A stretch of DNA of 64,000 nt from Eubacteriales bacterium. Lineage in GTDB: Bacteria > Bacillota > Clostridia > Lachnospirales > Lachnospiraceae. Position numbers and translations under genes: made by a program. Below, piece by piece: positions 7,115-63,794 of the stretch. The stretch is from contig JAUNDP010000012.1 of assembly GCA_030526005.1 (NCBI GenBank), positions 1 through 64,000 of the forward strand, read 5' to 3'. Under the pieces are notes generated by a model. The model was not told where the DNA came from and did not search any database. It saw nothing but the letters and a program-made list of their open reading frames with translations. How positions within the stretch are numbered: the first letter of the stretch is position 1; each line of letters starts with the position of its first letter.

Positions 7115-7351
7115 TAATTTATTTTAAGAAAAGGTACAAGAATTTAAATCAGAAATTTGGTAAGATAAAACCAGAAATCACAATAGAATAAAACAAATCA
7201 GAAATACATAACGAAAAACATACAATAAAAATAATGAAGGCTGTAAATGAGTGGAGATTGCAGAGGAATGCAGGAAAATAGAAAAGAAGAACTGCAAACA
7301 GCTGCAGACATAATGAAATGAAGGCAAGAAAATTTTAAAGGAGGGATTCTT

Positions 7352-8917
7352 ATGAAGAATAAGAAAGTAATTGGTGCAACTCTTTGCGGATTGTGCATGA
7401 TCATGGGAGTATCCATGACGTCACTCGCAGACAGCAGAAAAGTAGTGACATTGGGAGCAAACTTAAGTGATTCCCAGAGAACAATGATGTTGAATTATTT
7501 TGGCGTCAATGAGAATCAGGTAGATATCCTGACAATCACAAATCAGGATGAGAGAGATCATCTGAGTGCATTTGTTCCTATTGAGCAGATCGGAACAAGA
7601 ACATTCAGCTGTGCATATGTTCTGCCTACCACATCTGGCGGAATTCAGGTAAAGACAGCAAACTTAAACTGGGTAACGTGCAACATGATTGCATCTACCT
7701 TATCTACATCAGGCGTCACAAACTGCCAGGTTATCGCAGCTTCTCCGATTGAAGTATCTGGAACAGGAGCGTTGACAGGAATCATTATGGCATATGAGAC
7801 AGCAAATGGAGAACAGCTGGAAGAGTCCAAAAAACAGCTTGCAAATGAGGAGTTGTATCTGACAGGAACACTTTCTGATAAGATTGGACAGAAAGCAGCA
7901 ACAGCCATTATGAACGAGACAAAGATTCAGGTGATTTCACAGGATATCACAGACACAGACCAGATCAACAATATTATTTCTGAGGCAACGCAGAATAACA
8001 ATGTGACGATCACAGAGGAAGAACAGCAGGAAATCGTTGATCTGATGGACAAAATTGCACAGGAATCCTATGATTACAGCGAAATGGAAGATACACTTCA
8101 GATGGTAGAACAAAATGTATCTGATAATCCGATCACACAGCCAGAGACAGAGGATATGAATACAGATACAGGAGAACTGGAAGAAACAGAAGAAAATATT
8201 CTGGATAATACAAATGAAGATGTTTTAGGTGGAGGCGTTATCACAGGGTCCACACAGGAGCCGATGACAGAAGTACCTGAGACAACAGCTCCTGAGACGA
8301 CAGTTCCGGAAACAACAGCGCCGGAAGATCCATTTGGAGAAGTACAGGAAGAAACATACAACTTTACAGAGCCAGAGACACAGACACCGGCAGATGCAGT
8401 TCACTATACAGAAGAAATGCTGACAGATGAGGAAGACAAACAGGATTACAAAGATACAATGGAATTCTTTGACAAACTGCTGTCCCCAGACAAAGTGGTA
8501 GAGCCGGAAGATTATAAAGTTTACCTTCCTCAGGAAGTAGCAGATAAATTCAAAGAGGATATCGGACAGAAATTACTGGACTACATGATTAATGGCGTAT
8601 TAGTAGATACATTAGAGTATGATGAAGAGACGGCTGTTTACCAGGATGTAGAACTGAAAAATATGATTAAATTTGTCAGAGATCTGCTTCGTGACGACAA
8701 AGAGCAGCTTATGCCGGCAGATGTAACGACAGAAGACAAAGAGTTTTTATACAGTGAAGCAAAAGAATGGTTTGAAGATCTGTATGATTATGTTCCGGAA
8801 GGTGAGACAGAGATGACAGAGGCTTTACAGAGTGAACCGACTGACGTTCCTCAGCCAGCATCTGAATCAGAAGGCGCTGAGATTGATTTAGGACCAGTGA
8901 CAGAAGGAACATTCTAA
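7352..8917 (+). CDS. Secreted DUF1002 domain protein (YpuA-like)
   Basis: This 521-residue exported protein has a Sec signal peptide (residues 1 to about 26, MKNKKVIGATLCGLCMIMG followed by SLADS). Residues about 27-260 match the DUF1002/YpuA domain, recognised from its VTLGANLSDSQRTMML opening. A Pro-Glu-Thr linker with repeats of PETTAP type lies near 308-335. The C-terminal part is acidic and helical, with no sortase motif or membrane anchor. The function of DUF1002 is unknown; a cell-envelope location is inferred. AAAGGAGG precedes ATG 7352. A terminator at 9071-9119 closes the transcript. Confidence 0.85.
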   Translation: MKNKKVIGATLCGLCMIMGVSMTSLADSRKVVTLGANLSDSQRTMMLNYFGVNENQVDILTITNQDERDHLSAFVPIEQIGTRTFSCAYVLPTTSGGIQVKTANLNWVTCNMIASTLSTSGVTNCQVIAASPIEVSGTGALTGIIMAYETANGEQLEESKKQLANEELYLTGTLSDKIGQKAATAIMNETKIQVISQDITDTDQINNIISEATQNNNVTITEEEQQEIVDLMDKIAQESYDYSEMEDTLQMVEQNVSDNPITQPETEDMNTDTGELEETEENILDNTNEDVLGGGVITGSTQEPMTEVPETTAPETTVPETTAPEDPFGEVQEETYNFTEPETQTPADAVHYTEEMLTDEEDKQDYKDTMEFFDKLLSPDKVVEPEDYKVYLPQEVADKFKEDIGQKLLDYMINGVLVDTLEYDEETAVYQDVELKNMIKFVRDLLRDDKEQLMPADVTTEDKEFLYSEAKEWFEDLYDYVPEGETEMTEALQSEPTDVPQPASESEGAEIDLGPVTEGTF

Positions 8918-56455: not shown

Positions 56456-56746
56456 AAAATACAAATAAAAAGAAAAAATATGCGGCGGATGGAAAAGATC
56501 CGCACAGAAAAAAGTGTCATAGACAGAAAAGACAGGAATGAAAAGAAATCGATTCATGACTGGACTTCTGCCTGTGACATTTTTTTTGAGAAAATCCGGA
56601 GCGAAAGGGCAGAAAAACGGTGCGAACGGCATATCAGACAAATTGATAAAAAAATATGGGATTTGTATAATAAAAATATCAAAAATCGCACAATGTGGAT
56701 GGGATCTTGTGAAAAGAAATTGAAATGCAGGAAAGGGGAATACAAA

Positions 56747-59700
56747 ATGAATCGAAACAGAAAAGGATTATCAAAGAAAATAATGGGCGCTGTTCTGACA
56801 GGAACGATGATGTTGTCCGGCATGAGCGTGCTTGCGGAAGGACTTCAGGAAGGTCAGGCAGATGAATATACACAGGCAAATATGGACAATGCAAAGAATG
56901 GAACAGGGCTTGGAACGGTCTATGAGGAAGGAACATTTGATAGAAATACCGATTATGACGATGACAGTTTTTATAATAATGTAGATTCGGAAGATACGAC
57001 ATTTCCAGATTGCTATCCAAAGGATAACATGGCTCCGATGGATGACGAGACATTGGAAAAGACGCTGGACGCTCTGATGAGAACGATGACATTTGAAGAA
57101 AAGATCAACTTAGTGTCCATGAATACAGATCCGGAGAATCGATCCGGCGTCGGATATATCACAGGTGTTCCGAGGCTCGGCGTTCCGGAGAGCCGTATGC
57201 ACGACGGTCCGTCCGGAATCAGCACAGGAACACAGAATGCAGATTCTTACGTTGAGACGACAAATATGCCATTACAGCTGACAACGTCTATGACATGGAG
57301 CGAAGATCTGGCATATGCGTACGGCGCGGCGCTTGGAAAAGAACATGTATCGACAGGATCTGGCTGGCAGCTGGGAATGCAGATGGATTTGGCGCGCACG
57401 CCTCACTGGGCAAGAGCAAAAGATTCATTTGGCGAAGATTATTATCTGACGTCACGCCTGACGGTGGCGGAGACAAACGGACTTCAGGAACACGGCGGAC
57501 TGGCAATGGCAAAACATATCGGCGCATATTCCACAGACGGCGACACTTCACTTTGGCTGGAAGTGGATGAACAGACACTGCACACTGCTTACTTATATCC
57601 GTTTGAGACGGCGGCAAAAGAAGCAAGAGTTGCCTCTATCATGGGTACTTACAACCGCCTGAATGGATTTTATACTTCTTCAAACGCCCATCTGCAGATT
57701 GAAATTTTGCGCGATATGTGGAAATGGCAGGGAGCCATGGTTCCTGACTGGGGCGCAAACAAAGAATTTTCCATGAGTCTTGGAACAACGATTTCACAGG
57801 AAAATGCAGAAAATATTGAAGCGAAATTCCGTTCCGCGGCCTCTCAGGGAATCATGACAATCAAAGATCTCGATGCGGCAGCCAGAACAACGCTGTATGC
57901 GTATGGCGTCAGCGGATACTTAAATCTGGTGCAGATTGATGAGAACGGCTATGCAAAAGAAGAACCGGGACGCACAGAGCCGATCCGTTTTGAGAGAACG
58001 TATGAGGCAGACCGTGAAGCAGGTCTGTATGATGAAAATAATGAAGTGGCGAAAGAAATCGCAGAGAAAGGCATCGTACTCCTGAAAAATGAAGACCATA
58101 CGCTTCCTTTGACAAGTGAAGACTATACAGGCGATAATTCTGTAGCTTTGATCGGTTACGGCGCAGTCAATCTGATCGGAGGAACAGGAGGAGAACGTTC
58201 CTTTGGCGTATTAGAATATATGACAACTCCTTATGAATCTTTAAAGAGCATTGCAGGAGAAGATGCAAATATCACAGCAGCTGTTTTAAATAATGTTCAC
58301 GGAACAGACATACCGGCTGAACTTGTATACCAGAGTGAAGATGGAACGGAAAACGGATGGACACGCACAAATGGAATCAAGTCGGAGGACGTTGTGGAAC
58401 GTAAGATGGGATTTGGCGGTCCGGGAGGTCCAGAAGGAGAGCAGAAAGAGACAGAAGAAGCGAAAGCTCCAGATCCAATCGAGAATCCAGGCACAGAACT
58501 TGGAAGCGAAGCAGGAGTGGAAGAAGCCATTCACCTGTCAACAGGAAAGAGAGACTTTAAGAATGCAGAGAATGGAAATGCGATGACAGGAGAGGAAGCA
58601 TATACATGGACTGGCTATGTGGAAGCTCCGGAGTCCGGCGAGTATTCTTTTGTAATCCAGACAAACGGTGGAAATGCAAGCGTGAAGATCAGCGGCGCAG
58701 CAGAAGAAGATATCACAGCAACTGCATCTGATGGCGTATCATGGGATTACTATACGACAGAAGGACTGAATTATTCCACCGCATCGGCAACTCTGGAAGC
58801 TGGAAAACGGTACAAAGTCGTTGTGACAGCACATCATACGTCTGCTTACCGTGATCAGGGTGTCAAACTGAGCTGGATTCTGCCGTCTCAGGAAGAAACA
58901 GACATGGAAAATGCACTTGCAGCGGCAAAAGAAAATGATACTATTGTCATGTTCACAAGAACAGGCGCTACCGGCCATGGACCAGTATTCCAGACAGACT
59001 TTGACATCTCACTGGATGAAGCAGATCAGATCAAAGCGGTGCAGCAGGCAGCAAAAGAGAATGGAAATAAATTTGTCCTTGTTGTATTCGGACGCTCCGG
59101 ATTTTCATTTGAGGGAGACTGGTTAGAGGATACAGACGCTCTGTTAGTGCCATTCTATGCCGGACAGTCCGCAGGAACAGCAATCGCAGAACTTTTGACA
59201 GGCGTTGTCAATCCAAGCGCAAAACTGACGATGACACTGCCGAAGACAAACGCAGATACGCTGCTGACGTATGGATATTATGACAATCCAGATTCCGAGA
59301 CAAATTATAATCCGGAACGCGTAGGAGATCAGTCACAGTCCGAATATACAGCGAAATATACAGAAGGACTGAACTTTGGATACCGCTGGTATGACGCAGA
59401 AGAGGTAGAACCACAGTACGCATTTGGATATGGATTATCTTATACGACATTTGAGTACAGCGATTATGAAGTGACGGTGAATGACGACCATACGATTGAT
59501 GTGAGCGTCAAAGTGACAAACACAGGAGACGTCGCAGGAGATGAGATTGTTCAGGTATATCTGGGAGCAGCAGACGTTCCGGAAGGCGTCCAGACTGCCA
59601 AAAAGCAGCTTGCCGCATTCGCAAGAGTGGAAGATATTCAGCCGGGAGAGAGCAAAACAGCAGAAATGACGATCAATGAAAGAATGCTTTCCTACTGGGA

Positions 59701-59833
59701 TGCAAGCCTTGAATTGATTGAGAGAGAAGATGGAACAAAAGATAAGTGGGTACTTGCAGCAGGAGAACGCGACGTGATGATTGGATCTTCTTCTGATAAC
59801 CTGCTTTACACAGAAAGTGTGACAATCAAGTAG
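56747..59833 (+). CDS. Secreted GH3 family glycosidase with PA14 insert
   Basis: This 1028-residue exported enzyme is probably a beta-glucosidase or related. It has a signal peptide at residues about 1-32 (ending VLAEG), then the GH3 barrel, with substrate-binding MHDGPSGIS and the likely nucleophile Asp334 in VPDWGANKEF. The second alpha/beta domain contains an inserted PA14 domain (about 620-715: YTWTGYVEAPESGEYSF), common in GH3 enzymes acting on branched glycans. A fibronectin-III-like C-terminal domain follows (about 900-1005). No sortase or other anchor is seen. ATG 56747 is chosen for the GAAAGGGG site and signal peptide; the long upstream in-frame extension is not credible. Confidence 0.93.
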   Translation: MNRNRKGLSKKIMGAVLTGTMMLSGMSVLAEGLQEGQADEYTQANMDNAKNGTGLGTVYEEGTFDRNTDYDDDSFYNNVDSEDTTFPDCYPKDNMAPMDDETLEKTLDALMRTMTFEEKINLVSMNTDPENRSGVGYITGVPRLGVPESRMHDGPSGISTGTQNADSYVETTNMPLQLTTSMTWSEDLAYAYGAALGKEHVSTGSGWQLGMQMDLARTPHWARAKDSFGEDYYLTSRLTVAETNGLQEHGGLAMAKHIGAYSTDGDTSLWLEVDEQTLHTAYLYPFETAAKEARVASIMGTYNRLNGFYTSSNAHLQIEILRDMWKWQGAMVPDWGANKEFSMSLGTTISQENAENIEAKFRSAASQGIMTIKDLDAAARTTLYAYGVSGYLNLVQIDENGYAKEEPGRTEPIRFERTYEADREAGLYDENNEVAKEIAEKGIVLLKNEDHTLPLTSEDYTGDNSVALIGYGAVNLIGGTGGERSFGVLEYMTTPYESLKSIAGEDANITAAVLNNVHGTDIPAELVYQSEDGTENGWTRTNGIKSEDVVERKMGFGGPGGPEGEQKETEEAKAPDPIENPGTELGSEAGVEEAIHLSTGKRDFKNAENGNAMTGEEAYTWTGYVEAPESGEYSFVIQTNGGNASVKISGAAEEDITATASDGVSWDYYTTEGLNYSTASATLEAGKRYKVVVTAHHTSAYRDQGVKLSWILPSQEETDMENALAAAKENDTIVMFTRTGATGHGPVFQTDFDISLDEADQIKAVQQAAKENGNKFVLVVFGRSGFSFEGDWLEDTDALLVPFYAGQSAGTAIAELLTGVVNPSAKLTMTLPKTNADTLLTYGYYDNPDSETNYNPERVGDQSQSEYTAKYTEGLNFGYRWYDAEEVEPQYAFGYGLSYTTFEYSDYEVTVNDDHTIDVSVKVTNTGDVAGDEIVQVYLGAADVPEGVQTAKKQLAAFARVEDIQPGESKTAEMTINERMLSYWDASLELIEREDGTKDKWVLAAGERDVMIGSSSDNLLYTESVTIK

Positions 59834-60199: not shown

Positions 60200-60961
60200 T
60201 CATTTTGTAATGAGGACATTGTGATAAGAAGAAATCCATCGTAAAATCTCATTTTTTTTCCGAGAAGAAAACATAATTTCTTGTCCGTCTGACATCGTAA
60301 TCGTTTTTTTACTTAAATGGATGAAACGGACGAAATCCGCATTGATAATATAAGAACGGTGACAGCGGTAAAAACGGGAATCCAGCTTTGAAAGAACATT
60401 GTTTAAGTTACTGTTAAATTCAAGCTGCATATTTATGGTATATAAAGTCACTTTATGGGGCTGGGTATTTGTCTCAAAATATAAAATTTCATCGAGAGAA
60501 ACAAAAGAAACGCAATCTCCGATTTTCACTGAAAATGTTTTTTGACGAGAATCTCTGATACAGGCATGTTTTTTCAAAGCATTTGAGAGACATTGAAAAA
60601 TCTGATCGGAAAGAGTCTCTGGATGATCTTTTATAATATAGTCAAGCACTTCTAACTTCATCTGAAAGGTAAGCGATGCCATTTCAGAATGAGAGGTGAT
60701 AAAGACGATAAAACCTCTTGGATCTATTTCGCGGATTTTCTGTGCAAGTTCCAGTCCATCTATATCTGCATTCAGATTAATATCCAAAAAATAAATACCA
60801 GTATGCTGGGAAGAGCCGGTAGCATCTAAAATAGTATGCGGATCTGTGGAAGCGGCCGCAATAGACAGATCAAGGTTATAGATCAAGATGTATTTTTGAA
60901 TAGATTCTTTGATATATGTTAATTGAGGAATTTCATCCTCACAGATATAGATGTAAAGCAT
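60200..60961 (-). CDS. agrA: LytTR-family response regulator, AgrA-like
   Basis: This 253-residue response regulator has a receiver domain (residues 1 to about 125) with acidic pocket CEDE and phospho-acceptor Asp60 (YFLDINL). The LytTR DNA-binding domain spans about 145-245 (ILYFETNTQPHKVTLYT, then FYRCHRSYIINADFV), as in AgrA. It should be phosphorylated by the AgrC-like kinase at 61.6-62.9 kb and activate the agrD promoter. GGGAGAG precedes ATG 60961. It is alone on the minus strand, divergent from agrB, with an extended -10 promoter (TGATATAAT) at 61003-61011. The symbol is by role and family, not close identity. Confidence 0.88.
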   Translation of the reverse strand: MLYIYICEDEIPQLTYIKESIQKYILIYNLDLSIAAASTDPHTILDATGSSQHTGIYFLDINLNADIDGLELAQKIREIDPRGFIVFITSHSEMASLTFQMKLEVLDYIIKDHPETLSDQIFQCLSNALKKHACIRDSRQKTFSVKIGDCVSFVSLDEILYFETNTQPHKVTLYTINMQLEFNSNLNNVLSKLDSRFYRCHRSYIINADFVRFIHLSKKTITMSDGQEIMFSSRKKNEILRWISSYHNVLITK

Positions 60962-61036: not shown

Positions 61037-61585
61037 TTGAGAAAATATTTTAGCTTCAGTTCTGACAGAAGTGAATTGGAAAAGGCACAGATTTTATATG
61101 GAATACAGGTACTGTGGCATAATATAAAAACGACAGTGATTATTTTTGCAGTAGCATTACTTCTCGATATATTCTGCGGCACATTTTGGACATTTTTATC
61201 TTTTGGGATGTTTCGGATGTTTGCCGGAGGTCTGCATTTAAATACGACTGTGGGATGTCTGCTCACAACAGGAAGCGTCGCGATTGGCGGAGGAATTTTA
61301 GGAAATCATCTTATATTTCATCCGTGGCTGCTGTTTTTTATCTATTGTCTGATCTTTACAGGCGTTGTACTGTTTGCACCGCAGGGAACAGTGAACAATC
61401 CTTTTTCAGAAGATAATCAGAAAAAAATGAAAAAACGTTCCATGATTCTTGTCTTGATCTACGCAGTCATTTCCGTATCCGGAATAGAAAAGATCAGCTC
61501 TTGGATTACGATAGGAGCAATTGCAGAGCTGATCACAGTTATTATTTTATATGTTCAGAAGAAATCCGTCAGGAAAAAGGGATAG
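61037..61585 (+). CDS. agrB: AgrB-like membrane endopeptidase
   Basis: This 182-residue membrane cysteine peptidase matures the AgrD precursor and closes its ring. It has the family layout of five to six helices. The catalytic pair is His67 and Cys74 in FAGGLHLNTTVGC, the same spacing of seven as the His/Cys pair of Staphylococcus AgrB. Translation appears to start at TTG 61037, since there is no ATG before the first helix; the ribosome site (AAGGG, 11 nt upstream) is modest. Its 3' end overlaps that of the convergent agrC by 17 nt. Its likely substrate is the 46-residue peptide at 63084. Confidence 0.9.
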   Translation: MRKYFSFSSDRSELEKAQILYGIQVLWHNIKTTVIIFAVALLLDIFCGTFWTFLSFGMFRMFAGGLHLNTTVGCLLTTGSVAIGGGILGNHLIFHPWLLFFIYCLIFTGVVLFAPQGTVNNPFSEDNQKKMKKRSMILVLIYAVISVSGIEKISSWITIGAIAELITVIILYVQKKSVRKKG

Positions 61586-62873
61586 TCAAACGCTGCTCAA
61601 AGATATGATCTTTCATCGCGGTTTGATGTAAAACGTGTGGATATTGCGATAAAATTTTTTCAGCGTTATAAAGTCCCAGACCGCGAAGCGCTCCTTTTGT
61701 AGAAAATGCAGGGTCTTTCAACTGACTGTATGGAATCTCATCACCGCTGTAAGTGTTTTTGACAGAAATAACAATGGTATTTGGAAAAGTTACAATGGCA
61801 AACCAGATCTGACGCGATTCTGATTGGAGTGCAGCCTCGACAGCATTATCGAGATAGATGCCAAGAAGGCGCGCCAGATCCAGCGTCTCCATACTAATTT
61901 GTTCCAAAGGATCTAAAATTTCAATGGAAACAAAGAGCCCCATTTCGTGTGCATAGATTAGTTTCGCAGAGATCATACCTTTTAATTCAGGAATTTTTAG
62001 ATTGCTTAAAGTCCCAAGCCGATAGGTTTCATTCGTATATTGCTTGCCAAAAGGCAATACTTTATCATAAAAGTACACTTCTAATTTATCAAATTGTTTC
62101 ATTTCAAAATATTCCGTCATAGAAAGCATAATATTTGCATAGTCATGCTTGAAGGTACGCAGTTCAAGATTCATATCTTCAATTTTTTCTGTGTACTGCT
62201 GTAAAGTTTCATATAACTTTTCTTTTTCTTTCTGCTTTTCAACAGCAATTAATGTCTTCACAGAATGAAAAGCAGAGAAAAGTGTCCATAAAGTACAGCA
62301 GATAACAAGAAAAAAATTAAAATATACGATAGGGTCTGTGTAACCTAATTTTTCGCCTGCAATGAAATTCAGAAGAACTATCAGCAGACAGATAAAAAGA
62401 GTAGGAAAGACCAGTTTTAATACTTCATTCAATTCTAAAACAGATTGAAATTTTTTCTTCAAAAAAGGCAGCAGGAAATGTGAGAGCAGGAAACAAATAA
62501 CCAATTCCACAGTAAGACCGGCAAGACAGCTCACAGTCATCAGAGAATAATCTGTATGTGTTGAGGCAACACCATAGTCAAGTCCAGTTAAAACGATACT
62601 TATAAGCTGATCAATCAGAACAAGCAAAAAATAAGCGACAATAACAGAACAAACAGTGGGCAGGTTTTTATTTGTTATTTTACATAAGTAAATAGAGACA
62701 ACGACCAAGAGAAAAATAACAGCCGCATTGCTTGTGGTGGCAATAAGAATCAGAGAGAAAAATAAAAGGAAATATAAAGTTAAATATTGTTTTATCGAAA
62801 GCCGATAAGGCAAAAAAGTAATAATAGGGAAAAAATAAAGGAAACTTGATAAAAAAATAGAAAAAATAAACAT
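61569..62873 (-). CDS. agrC: AgrC-like sensor histidine kinase (GHKL type)
   Basis: This 434-residue sensor has six to seven N-terminal membrane helices (residues about 1-205) and a cytoplasmic kinase. The phospho-acceptor is His243 in FKHDYANIML, and the GHKL ATPase has YLDNAVEAAL (N-box) and the GLGLYNAEKIL G-box. It would sense the cyclic peptide and phosphorylate the AgrA-like regulator. ATG 62873 is preferred over GTG 62882, because AGAAGGG is 8 nt before the ATG and abuts the GTG. It has a near-perfect sigma-A promoter. Confidence 0.88.
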   Translation of the reverse strand: MFIFSIFLSSFLYFFPIITFLPYRLSIKQYLTLYFLLFFSLILIATTSNAAVIFLLVVVSIYLCKITNKNLPTVCSVIVAYFLLVLIDQLISIVLTGLDYGVASTHTDYSLMTVSCLAGLTVELVICFLLSHFLLPFLKKKFQSVLELNEVLKLVFPTLFICLLIVLLNFIAGEKLGYTDPIVYFNFFLVICCTLWTLFSAFHSVKTLIAVEKQKEKEKLYETLQQYTEKIEDMNLELRTFKHDYANIMLSMTEYFEMKQFDKLEVYFYDKVLPFGKQYTNETYRLGTLSNLKIPELKGMISAKLIYAHEMGLFVSIEILDPLEQISMETLDLARLLGIYLDNAVEAALQSESRQIWFAIVTFPNTIVISVKNTYSGDEIPYSQLKDPAFSTKGALRGLGLYNAEKILSQYPHVLHQTAMKDHIFEQRLTIPFS

Positions 62874-62906
62874 AAAAATCACCCTTCTAAAAATATTTAT
62901 AGAAAA

Positions 62907-62935
62907 ATTATAAAATTCTATAAAATATATGTCAA
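62907..62935 (-). promoter_or_regulatory. Consensus promoter of the agrC-like gene
   Basis: On the minus strand, TTGACA (62935-62930), a 17-bp spacer and TATAAT (62912-62907): all twelve consensus bases. This implies steady, regulator-independent expression of the sensor. Confidence 0.75.
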
Positions 62936-62991
62936 GAAACTTAAATCGACAATATTTTCTAAAAAATAAAAATAAAAATGTAAAAATATAG

Positions 62992-63021
62992 CATTCAGGA
63001 CTGAAAAACGATCATTTAGGA
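62992..63021 (+). repeat. Direct repeats upstream of agrD, candidate AgrA-type binding sites
   Basis: CATTCAGGA (62992-63000) and CATTTAGGA (63013-63021) differ at one base. They lie exactly 21 bp apart (two helical turns), ending 7 bp before the poor -35 of the agrD promoter. LytTR regulators bind paired 9-bp direct repeats at this spacing. Binding is inferred. Confidence 0.6.
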
Positions 63022-63047
63022 AAAAAACGTAGAATTTCAGAAAGAAG

Positions 63048-63056
63048 TGATATAAT
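63048..63056 (+). promoter_or_regulatory. Extended -10 promoter of agrD
   Basis: TGATATAAT (TATAAT at 63051-63056) with a poor -35 (CGTAGA). This pattern is expected of an activator-dependent promoter, and the repeats just upstream are where an activator would sit. Confidence 0.6.
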
Positions 63057-63083
63057 AATGATACATAAAAGGGGGAAAGAAAA

Positions 63084-63224
63084 ATGGGAATGAAACGAAG
63101 AACAGAAGAACTTTTAATATGGCTGGGAAAGCACAGTGTTGGAAAATCTATATTTTGGGGCGTGTATGAACCGCCTGTTCCACAGGTTCTGAAACAGCAA
63201 GAAGAAAAGAAAAAATGCCAGTGA
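63084..63224 (+). CDS. agrD: AgrD-like autoinducer precursor peptide without ring cysteine
   Basis: This 46-residue ORF is preceded by GGGGG and fits an AgrD precursor in three parts: a basic amphipathic leader (residues 1-21, KRRTEELLIWLGKHSVGK), a hydrophobic core SIFWGVY (22-28), and a tail EPPVPQVLKQ followed by acidic residues, like the E-P-K-V-P-E tail of staphylococcal AgrD. The ring residue is normally Cys; here the only candidate is Ser22, as in the serine-lactone peptides of Enterococcus FsrD and Staphylococcus intermedius. The only Cys (45) is at the far C-terminus. The predicted signal is a Ser22-Tyr28 lactone. The ring size is unproven. Confidence 0.75.
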   Translation: MGMKRRTEELLIWLGKHSVGKSIFWGVYEPPVPQVLKQQEEKKKCQ

Positions 63225-63343
63225 TGCTGTAATCCAGAAGAAATGGTAGATGCAGAGAAAAATAGTATCATGGAAGAGAACGTGAAAATAAAACAATAGA
63301 GCGTACGGCTATTGTAAACTTAAAGAAAAAGGAGAGGATTCCG

Positions 63344-63398: not shown

Positions 63399-63794
63399 AT
63401 GAAGCGGATGTTAAAAACATCGGCAGCGATAGCAGGAAGCGTTGGACTGCTGGCGGGAGCGTGCTATGCGAATAATAGTGTGGATGAATATTTTGAATAT
63501 TATGTATCCAGAGTGAGATGTGTTACAAGACTAAGAGAGAAAACAGATACTTCTTCATGTTACATGATTTATACTGGTGGGGATCCAGAATATATTTATG
63601 GAAGTGTATATGCTTCAGATCAGGTGACAAATATGACAGTAGGAGCCTTTTCCTATGCTTGCTATCGAGGACAGTCTATCTATATACCATCAAATACATA
63701 TGAATATGGATACAGAAGTTGTTGTCTGTCTATCTTAGGACCAAGCTATACTCCACAACATGCATATGGATATTGGAGCCCAGACAGTGTATAA
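63399..63794 (+). CDS. Small secreted cysteine-containing protein, agr-linked
   Basis: This 131-residue protein has a signal peptide (residues 1 to about 24, with small residues before the cut near CYA-NN). The mature part is rich in Tyr, Ser and Gly, has six cysteines (about five to six in the mature chain) and ends in GYWSPDSV. It looks like a compact beta-rich secreted protein. A loose likeness in size and layout to DUF2712 proteins is noted, at low confidence. ATG 63399 is chosen because GAGGAG is 8 nt upstream. It follows agrD in the same direction with no terminator between, so it is a likely agr-controlled product. Confidence 0.7.
   Translation: MKRMLKTSAAIAGSVGLLAGACYANNSVDEYFEYYVSRVRCVTRLREKTDTSSCYMIYTGGDPEYIYGSVYASDQVTNMTVGAFSYACYRGQSIYIPSNTYEYGYRSCCLSILGPSYTPQHAYGYWSPDSV

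Follow-up and report, generated by a model that had tools for sequence, protein, structure and literature searches.

The window, the whole stretch of 64,000 nucleotides analysed here, belongs to a Lachnospiraceae genome (2.5 Mb, 95% complete) and holds, close to its end, a complete agr locus of four genes, all of them open reading frames, in which the strands of neighbouring genes alternate (agrA minus, agrB plus, agrC minus, agrD plus). The genes and features are these:

60200..60961, minus strand: agrA, LytTR response regulator, 253 aa (LytTR 69.1 bits, Response_reg 43.2 bits)
61037..61585, plus strand: agrB, membrane peptidase/cyclase, 182 aa, with R..AGG.H......C (PF04647 101.9 bits, cut-off 23)
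61569..62882, minus strand: agrC, 437-aa sensor histidine kinase, transcribed divergently from agrD (HATPase_c_5, a GHKL domain, 58.2 bits)
62992..63021, plus strand: putative AgrA box, direct repeat CATTCAGGA-N12-CATTTAGGA with a 21-bp period, 29 bp before TATAAT (pattern search)
63084..63224, plus strand: agrD, 46-aa signal precursor (ORF reading, homologues, conservation, TIGR04223 14.3 bits, below cut-off)
63147..63149, plus strand: Ser22 codon of agrD, predicted lactone residue, position -7 (Ser/Cys conservation in related AgrDs and AgrB clade)
63399..63794, plus strand: DUF2712 protein, ~131 aa, signal-like N-terminus (PF10916 36.8 and 37 bits, cut-off 22)

AgrB contains AGGLHLNTTVGC, with an Arg seven residues before the His, and is the only AgrB found in its genome. 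The two-component partners were recognized by HATPase_c_5, Response_reg and LytTR, all above their cut-offs, while the specific models NF046015 (AgrC, 185.6 bits, cut-off 500) and NF046049 (AgrA, 182.1 bits, cut-off 400) matched below theirs. The same alternating gene order was found in genomes G001, G027, G181 and G107; in G001, of the same genus, AgrC and AgrB are 59% and 57% identical to those of the window. Coprococcus catus (L074, matching G027) has an agr locus with AgrC 33% and AgrB 26% identical, and G002, the remaining genome of the genus among those compared, gave no AgrB match at E <= 1e-6. A PDB search with AgrB returned a single match, a capsid protein at E 0.7, which we took as chance. 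Upstream of the locus (56480-59833) is the gene of a large secreted protein that looks by eye like a glycoside hydrolase of family 3, and G001 encodes a similar protein ahead of its own agr locus (L036 397-3378).

The product of agrD, MGMKRRTEELLIWLGKHSVGKSIFWGVYEPPVPQVLKQQEEKKKCQ (46 aa, ATG at 63084, end of stop codon at 63224), is preceded by AGGGGG (63070-63075) 8 nt 5' of the ATG and by TATAAT at 63051-63056. It has the layout of an AgrD, as judged from its sequence and from alignment with relatives: a short precursor with a basic leader (approximately residues 1-21), a ring region (predicted as Ser22-Val27, window 63147-63164) and an EP/QP-type tail that starts at Tyr28, encoded 1.5 kb from agrB. 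G001 encodes a 48-aa homologue in the same place beside agrC (58% identical, E 4e-14). The ORF is thus real and is the agrD of this locus, and the original prediction of a 46-residue ORF with AgrD parts was exact in both place and length. An overlapping antisense ORF (62918-63271, minus strand, 117 aa) was not taken as a gene, because in the six-frame translation of G001 a stop interrupts the matching frame (S*TPTT in place of SYTPQN).

Automatic recognition of this gene is poor. The AgrD model TIGR04223 did match it, at 14.3 bits, short of the cut-off of 19 that confers membership, and a Pfam search gave no family match, so that cut-off-based annotation would miss agrD. When TIGR04223 was run on 10 relatives, seven gave no match, two fell below the cut-off and one rose above it (L042, with Cys at -6). 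Positions are numbered here from the E of YEPPVP, such that Tyr28 is -1 and Ser22 is -7; the canonical ring position, -6, is occupied by Ile23 in place of a Cys or Ser. As had been claimed, the core is free of Cys, the sole Cys being residue 45 in the C-terminal tail. Cys45 was rejected as a ring residue, since it falls in the part that AgrB is expected to cut off and has no counterpart in the G001 homologue, and no Ser, Thr or Cys occurs between Ser22 and the tail.

Related AgrDs were collected in several ways. A search with three AgrCs against genome contigs gave 79 loci, 19 of which had an AgrB; an AgrD was recognized in 16 of these 19, as well as in L069 and, fused, in L072, and none was recognized in the other 58 loci, which were without AgrB. 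Searching with the window AgrD gave a match in 27 of 98 genomes at E <= 1, mostly at E 0.1-1, and all matches were rescored with the family model; a weak match in L031 was read and dropped, and that in L006 proved real. Another search gave several hits, in L048, L051, L052 and L056, that belong to larger unrelated proteins. A search at the level of the class matched in 9 of 391 genomes. From these sources and the census described below we picked 27 AgrDs by hand, leaving out weaker-scoring AgrD-like peptides with Cys or Ser at -5 or -6 (L044, L062, L018/L049, L053, L013, L050, L021), the fused L072, the unclear L054, L084 and L170, L169, and, from the class search, L172, L173 (Cys at both -7 and -6), L175 (Cys at -6) and L176 (Ser at -6, adjoining an AgrB). 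No AgrB was seen in the DNA examined around L046, L069 and L164. In L072 (4405-4785, minus strand, Lachnospiraceae bacterium 28-4), the leader resembles that of an AgrD as far as VGKSQILG and then continues into a different, longer ORF with no EP tail, which may be read as a fusion, a deletion or a new use of the AgrD leader.

In this set, column -7 is Ser in 22 AgrDs, Cys in three, Leu in one and Lys in one, and at 3.38 bits it is the most conserved of columns -13 to -1 (columns -6 to -4 reach 0.97 to 1.22 bits), a figure that is somewhat circular and biased upward, since part of the set came from searches with family-seeded models. Ser is exemplified by VGK-S-IRFGM-YDPKIP (L064), VGK-S-IIPGM-FDPEIP (L065) and VGK-S-IVMGM-YDPKIP (L069, Schaedlerella arabinosiphila), and Cys in the same place by VGK-C-MIPGM-FDPKIP (L067), VGK-C-MIPGM-FDPEIP (L070) and VGK-C-MVPGL-FDPKIP (G181). 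Ser stands at -7 in 16 of the 17 AgrDs whose columns -8 to -1 are free of Cys, and 14 of the 27 have no Ser or Cys in columns -7 to -1 other than the Ser at -7. The two exceptions place their candidate residue one position downstream (L110, Leu at -7 and Ser at -6; L085, Lys at -7 and Cys at -6), and several AgrDs offer other candidates beside the Ser at -7, namely Cys at -6 (L042), Ser at -6 (L117, L043), Cys at -5 (L117, L139), Cys at -4 (L074) and Cys at -3 (L167, L285). Conservation of the Ser22 column among homologues, on which the earlier reading of Ser22 as the ring residue hinged, is therefore borne out by 22 Ser and three Cys; the accompanying expectation that no homologue would keep a Cys elsewhere held less well, as 10 of the 27 have one between -8 and -1, three of these at -7. 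Judged by these comparisons, Ser22, one residue upstream of the canonical site, is probably the ring residue in place of Cys.

The automatic models' failure to find agrD is also what one would see if the gene had decayed, its Cys lost and the system dead. This reading is next to negligible, as all four genes are open, the same-genus pair differs far less at nonsynonymous than at synonymous sites (pN 0.29 versus pS 0.83 over 45 codons, with dS saturated), and Ser at -7 is kept in nearly all of the relatives that lack Cys from -8 to -1.

The AgrB proteins tell a matching story. The pair H......C, catalytic in the AgrB of S. aureus, fits 134 of the 135 AgrBs examined (the exception being L085). 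Seven residues before the His, 126 of these have Arg and the other eight, L064-L068, L070, L071 and L073, have Lys. Two trees were built. The quick one took in 130 AgrBs and carried a warning of long branches meeting; the careful one was limited to 50 selected rows (29 of the group and 21 others). In both, the window AgrB groups with the AgrBs of other AgrDs that have their Ser or Cys at -7. In the careful tree it falls in a clade of 21 (bootstrap 96, SH-aLRT 92); an AgrD was found for 18 of these, every one with Ser (15) or Cys (3) at -7, and the remaining rows are L068, where the contig ends just before agrC, and L071 and L111, where none was found. Cys occurs in two places of this clade, L294 (G181) lying apart from L067 and L070, so that the careful tree needs two Ser/Cys changes, in either direction. 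Outside the clade, Ser at -7 occurs in L045, L047 and L165, which sit on long or weakly placed branches of the careful tree. The quick tree puts all 12 rows labelled Ser at -7 in one group of 26 (support 98), which also contains L042 (Cys at -6), L085 and L110; the careful tree places L110 and L085 far from the rest. Apart from these, in L296 (G289:C2) an agrD with Ser at -7 adjoins agrC- and agrA-like genes with no AgrB within the 10 kb examined, and an AgrB lies on another contig of that genome. S. aureus AgrB1 and AgrB2 are described as unable to process an AgrD with Ser (PMC10482373), which implies that an adapted AgrB would be needed here.

The frequency of ring Ser was assessed by a census. 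Of 397 Lachnospiraceae genomes, 129 had a PF04647 match at E <= 1e-6, and the census took 110 of the higher-scoring AgrB loci among the matches listed, down to ~109 bits (30 plus 80 added, with four listed rows passed over); being ranked by AgrB score it is non-random, and it covers the window AgrB (101.5 bits) and the rest of that clade too thinly. AgrDs were sought with an iterated model that started from 13 peptides of both kinds. It found a candidate AgrD in 84 of the 110 loci at E <= 0.5 and none in the other 26, and after L206 and L234 (E above 0.01) and L192 (no anchor) were dropped, 81 loci with 79 distinct anchored AgrDs remained. Cys stands at -6 in 55 of these 79 AgrDs from higher-scoring loci, and Ser in 21. 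The Ser cases account for 21 of the 24 without Cys at -6 (12 of 14 where columns -8 to -1 are free of Cys, and 9 of 10 where a Cys stands elsewhere). Compared with a mean Ser rate of 0.097 at the nine other sites, this excess has a probability of 8e-19 under a binomial model that ignores relatedness. The three with neither residue at -6 are L285 (Ser at -7), L275 (Ser at -5) and L219, whose AgrD, FTRFLFYEPEIP, has Thr at -6 and no Ser or Cys from -8 to -1 and could form a Thr lactone. Ring Ser, which had been called rare, is thus common in this score-ranked sample. Ser at -6 followed by Cys at -5 was seen in L205, L243, L255 and L289 of the census and in L053 and L044; since L196, L201, L246 and L274 keep the Ser at -6 with Ser, Gly or Ile at -5, Ser may be the ring residue in such AgrDs and Cys a bystander.

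These data bear on whether a ring is formed at all. Lys at -8 (22 of 27), Gly at -9 (19) and Val at -10 (16) are conserved as well, and Ser22 might accordingly be kept as part of a VGKS motif for processing or recognition by AgrB or a leader peptidase, the signal being linear. We consider this improbable, given that Cys, found in two places, is the only substitute for Ser in the AgrB clade of 21, that column -6 is Cys or Ser in 76 of the 79 census AgrDs, and that linear AIPs of S. aureus are inactive according to PMC12312760. Cyclization through Ser22 is the reading we follow.

The size of the ring depends on the cut site. C. difficile AgrD1 contains ANSTCPWIIHQPK (PMC8534292), and its AIP is given in Table 1 of PMC12312760 as ANST[CPWII]; in our numbering its Cys is at -6 and its five-residue ring ends at -2, leaving the residue before the QP motif outside. 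Transferred to the window, this CPWII/HQP register would put the cut between Val27 and Tyr28 and close a six-residue ring, SIFWGV, at Val27. By this comparison such a cut is more likely than one after Tyr28, and it displaces both the Tyr-Glu junction and the seven-residue ring Ser22-Tyr28 of the original prediction. That larger lactone, SIFWGVY, is unlikely, though the strongest of the rivals. An aromatic residue is conserved at -1 (Tyr 12, His 10, Phe 5 of 27) and could either close the ring or serve in recognition, and cut sites can differ, as the ring of C. botulinum AIP-1, ACYW[CVYQP], extends into its QP (Table 1, PMC12312760), so that the cut is not fixed. Against it, the matching His of HQPK lies outside the ring listed for C. 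difficile AgrD1 (PMC8534292 and PMC12312760), and with Cys at -6 in most of the census AgrDs the majority of their rings would have six residues if the cut fell after -1, in conflict with the five-residue ring of most AIPs in Table 1 of PMC12312760.

Should the leader be cut right before Ser22, the lactone might rearrange to a homodetic cyclohexapeptide that is the true signal; a tail-less synthetic lactone analogue of the Listeria AIP was converted to 48% homodetic peptide in 22 h at 37 C (PMC11297923). We rate this a shade less probable even than a linear signal, since the conservation of Lys21 (22 Lys and 2 Arg of 27) would fit a tail retained in the product. A six-residue Ser lactone with an N-terminal tail, to which we return, is a strong prediction from the sequence.

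More broadly, we give about even weight to the proposal that in a branch of AgrB enzymes centred on Lachnospiraceae the ring nucleophile has moved upstream by one residue, that their products are six-residue macrocycles, mainly Ser lactones, with repeated exchange of Ser and Cys at the one site, and that, once AgrDs with Ser at -6 are counted too, oxygen lactones would be a regular signal class in the family.

The putative AgrA box lies before agrD, and its 21-bp spacing resembles that of AgrA sites in S. aureus. In the whole genome the pattern has two exact sites and nine more with 3 mismatches, and a reversed-pattern control gave 13 matches. The second exact site (G000:C50 61525-61554; L038 6525-6554) precedes a 154-aa membrane protein without a family match (L038 6718-7182) and is a possible second target of the agr system; the 90 bases around the two exact boxes are 85% alike. 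A third DNA match of the box region, 31 bases on contig C12 (E 7e-4), was taken as chance. G001 has one exact box, before agrD, and no counterpart of the C50 box at <= 3 mismatches except one site with 3 mismatches. Across 11 upstream regions examined, the 21-bp repeat precedes agrD in the window, L063, L064 and L066 (by script) and in L073 (by eye), and six are without it. A shared stretch, CAACG..TATTACTGAATAAACGTTGAT, was seen by eye instead in L065, L067, L070 and L072, and is perhaps the site of another regulator. Beyond the C50 box, at L038 ~7300-8653, the signal-peptide part and the body of a secreted, by eye esterase-like protein lie in different frames, owing to a frameshift or an assembly error.

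Downstream of agrD, the DUF2712 gene is perhaps part of the agrD operon, and the cassette continues beyond the window (L035) with two lipoprotein-like genes, membrane proteins without a family match that appear by eye to be ABC permeases, and an ABC ATPase (PF00005 108.8 bits; best NCBIfam match TIGR03740, lantibiotic protection, 181.6, cut-off 309.75). The two lipoprotein-like genes (L035 6061-6744 and 6793-7557) are adjacent and very similar, an apparent tandem duplication. G027 has a similar downstream set, DUF2712 included, and no DUF2712 ORF was seen in the downstream region of G001. Inspected by eye, the loci of G181 and L070 encode a small secreted protein next to membrane proteins and an ATPase; in L069 a radical SAM protein is accompanied by a small protein resembling PqqD. 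These cassettes suggest that the agr signal may control bacteriocin-like modules.

To summarize, we consider it likely, and the best explanation of the whole, that the four genes form a complete quorum-sensing system of the agr type, with an AgrD precursor cyclized through Ser22. In the mechanism we propose, the catalytic Cys of AgrB would cut between Val27 and Tyr28 and the hydroxyl of Ser22 would accept the acyl group, giving the six-residue lactone SIFWGV with an N-terminal tail; AgrC would sense the lactone outside the cell, leading to phosphorylation of AgrA, which would bind the 21-bp direct repeat and raise transcription of agrD and of the DUF2712/lipoprotein/ABC genes that follow it, a cassette that may serve in export or protection of a bacteriocin-like kind. 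Lachnospiraceae are a major family of gut bacteria, and if this is right, Ser-ring signals would be common among them and partly overlooked by models at present cut-offs, ring size would follow the AgrB clade and not be fixed at five, and the natural Ser/Cys pairs of relatives would provide material on how AgrB picks its nucleophile. It would also give exact masses to seek in culture, 690.36 for [SIFWGV] versus 853.42 for [SIFWGVY], each with the same tail added.

Ser rings and six-residue rings are each already known separately, and we found no report of the two together: the titles and abstract openings covered named neither Ser-ring AgrDs of Lachnospiraceae nor a six-residue Ser lactone. 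As far as can be told, what is new is the shifted ring position, its AgrB clade, the occurrence of both Ser and Cys at the same site within that clade, and the share of Ser-ring AgrDs. Among known systems, the Staphylococcus intermedius group is close in having an AgrD-derived AIP, RIPT[STGFF], with ring Ser in place of Cys and a lactone (PMC3673130, PMC12312760), but its ring has five residues, compared with Ser at -7 and a predicted six here, and its gene order is agrBDCA (PMC12312760), unlike the alternating strands of the window. The Fsr system of Enterococcus faecalis shares a Ser lactone with a ring larger than five, GBAP QN[SPNIFGQWM] (PMC3673130, PMC12312760); however, that ring has nine residues and fsrD lies inside the fsrB sequence in another frame (PMC3673130), whereas agrD here is a separate gene with a YEPPVP tail and six or seven residues from Ser22 to the EP motif. 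Clostridioides difficile Agr2 provides a clostridial AIP with Ser at the start of the ring, NSA[SSWVA] (Table 1, PMC12312760), although that ring is again of five residues. Finally, the Agr system of Clostridium acetobutylicum has a ring of six residues, [CVLVTL] (PMC12312760, PMC4916163), yet one that starts with Cys and is thus a thiolactone.
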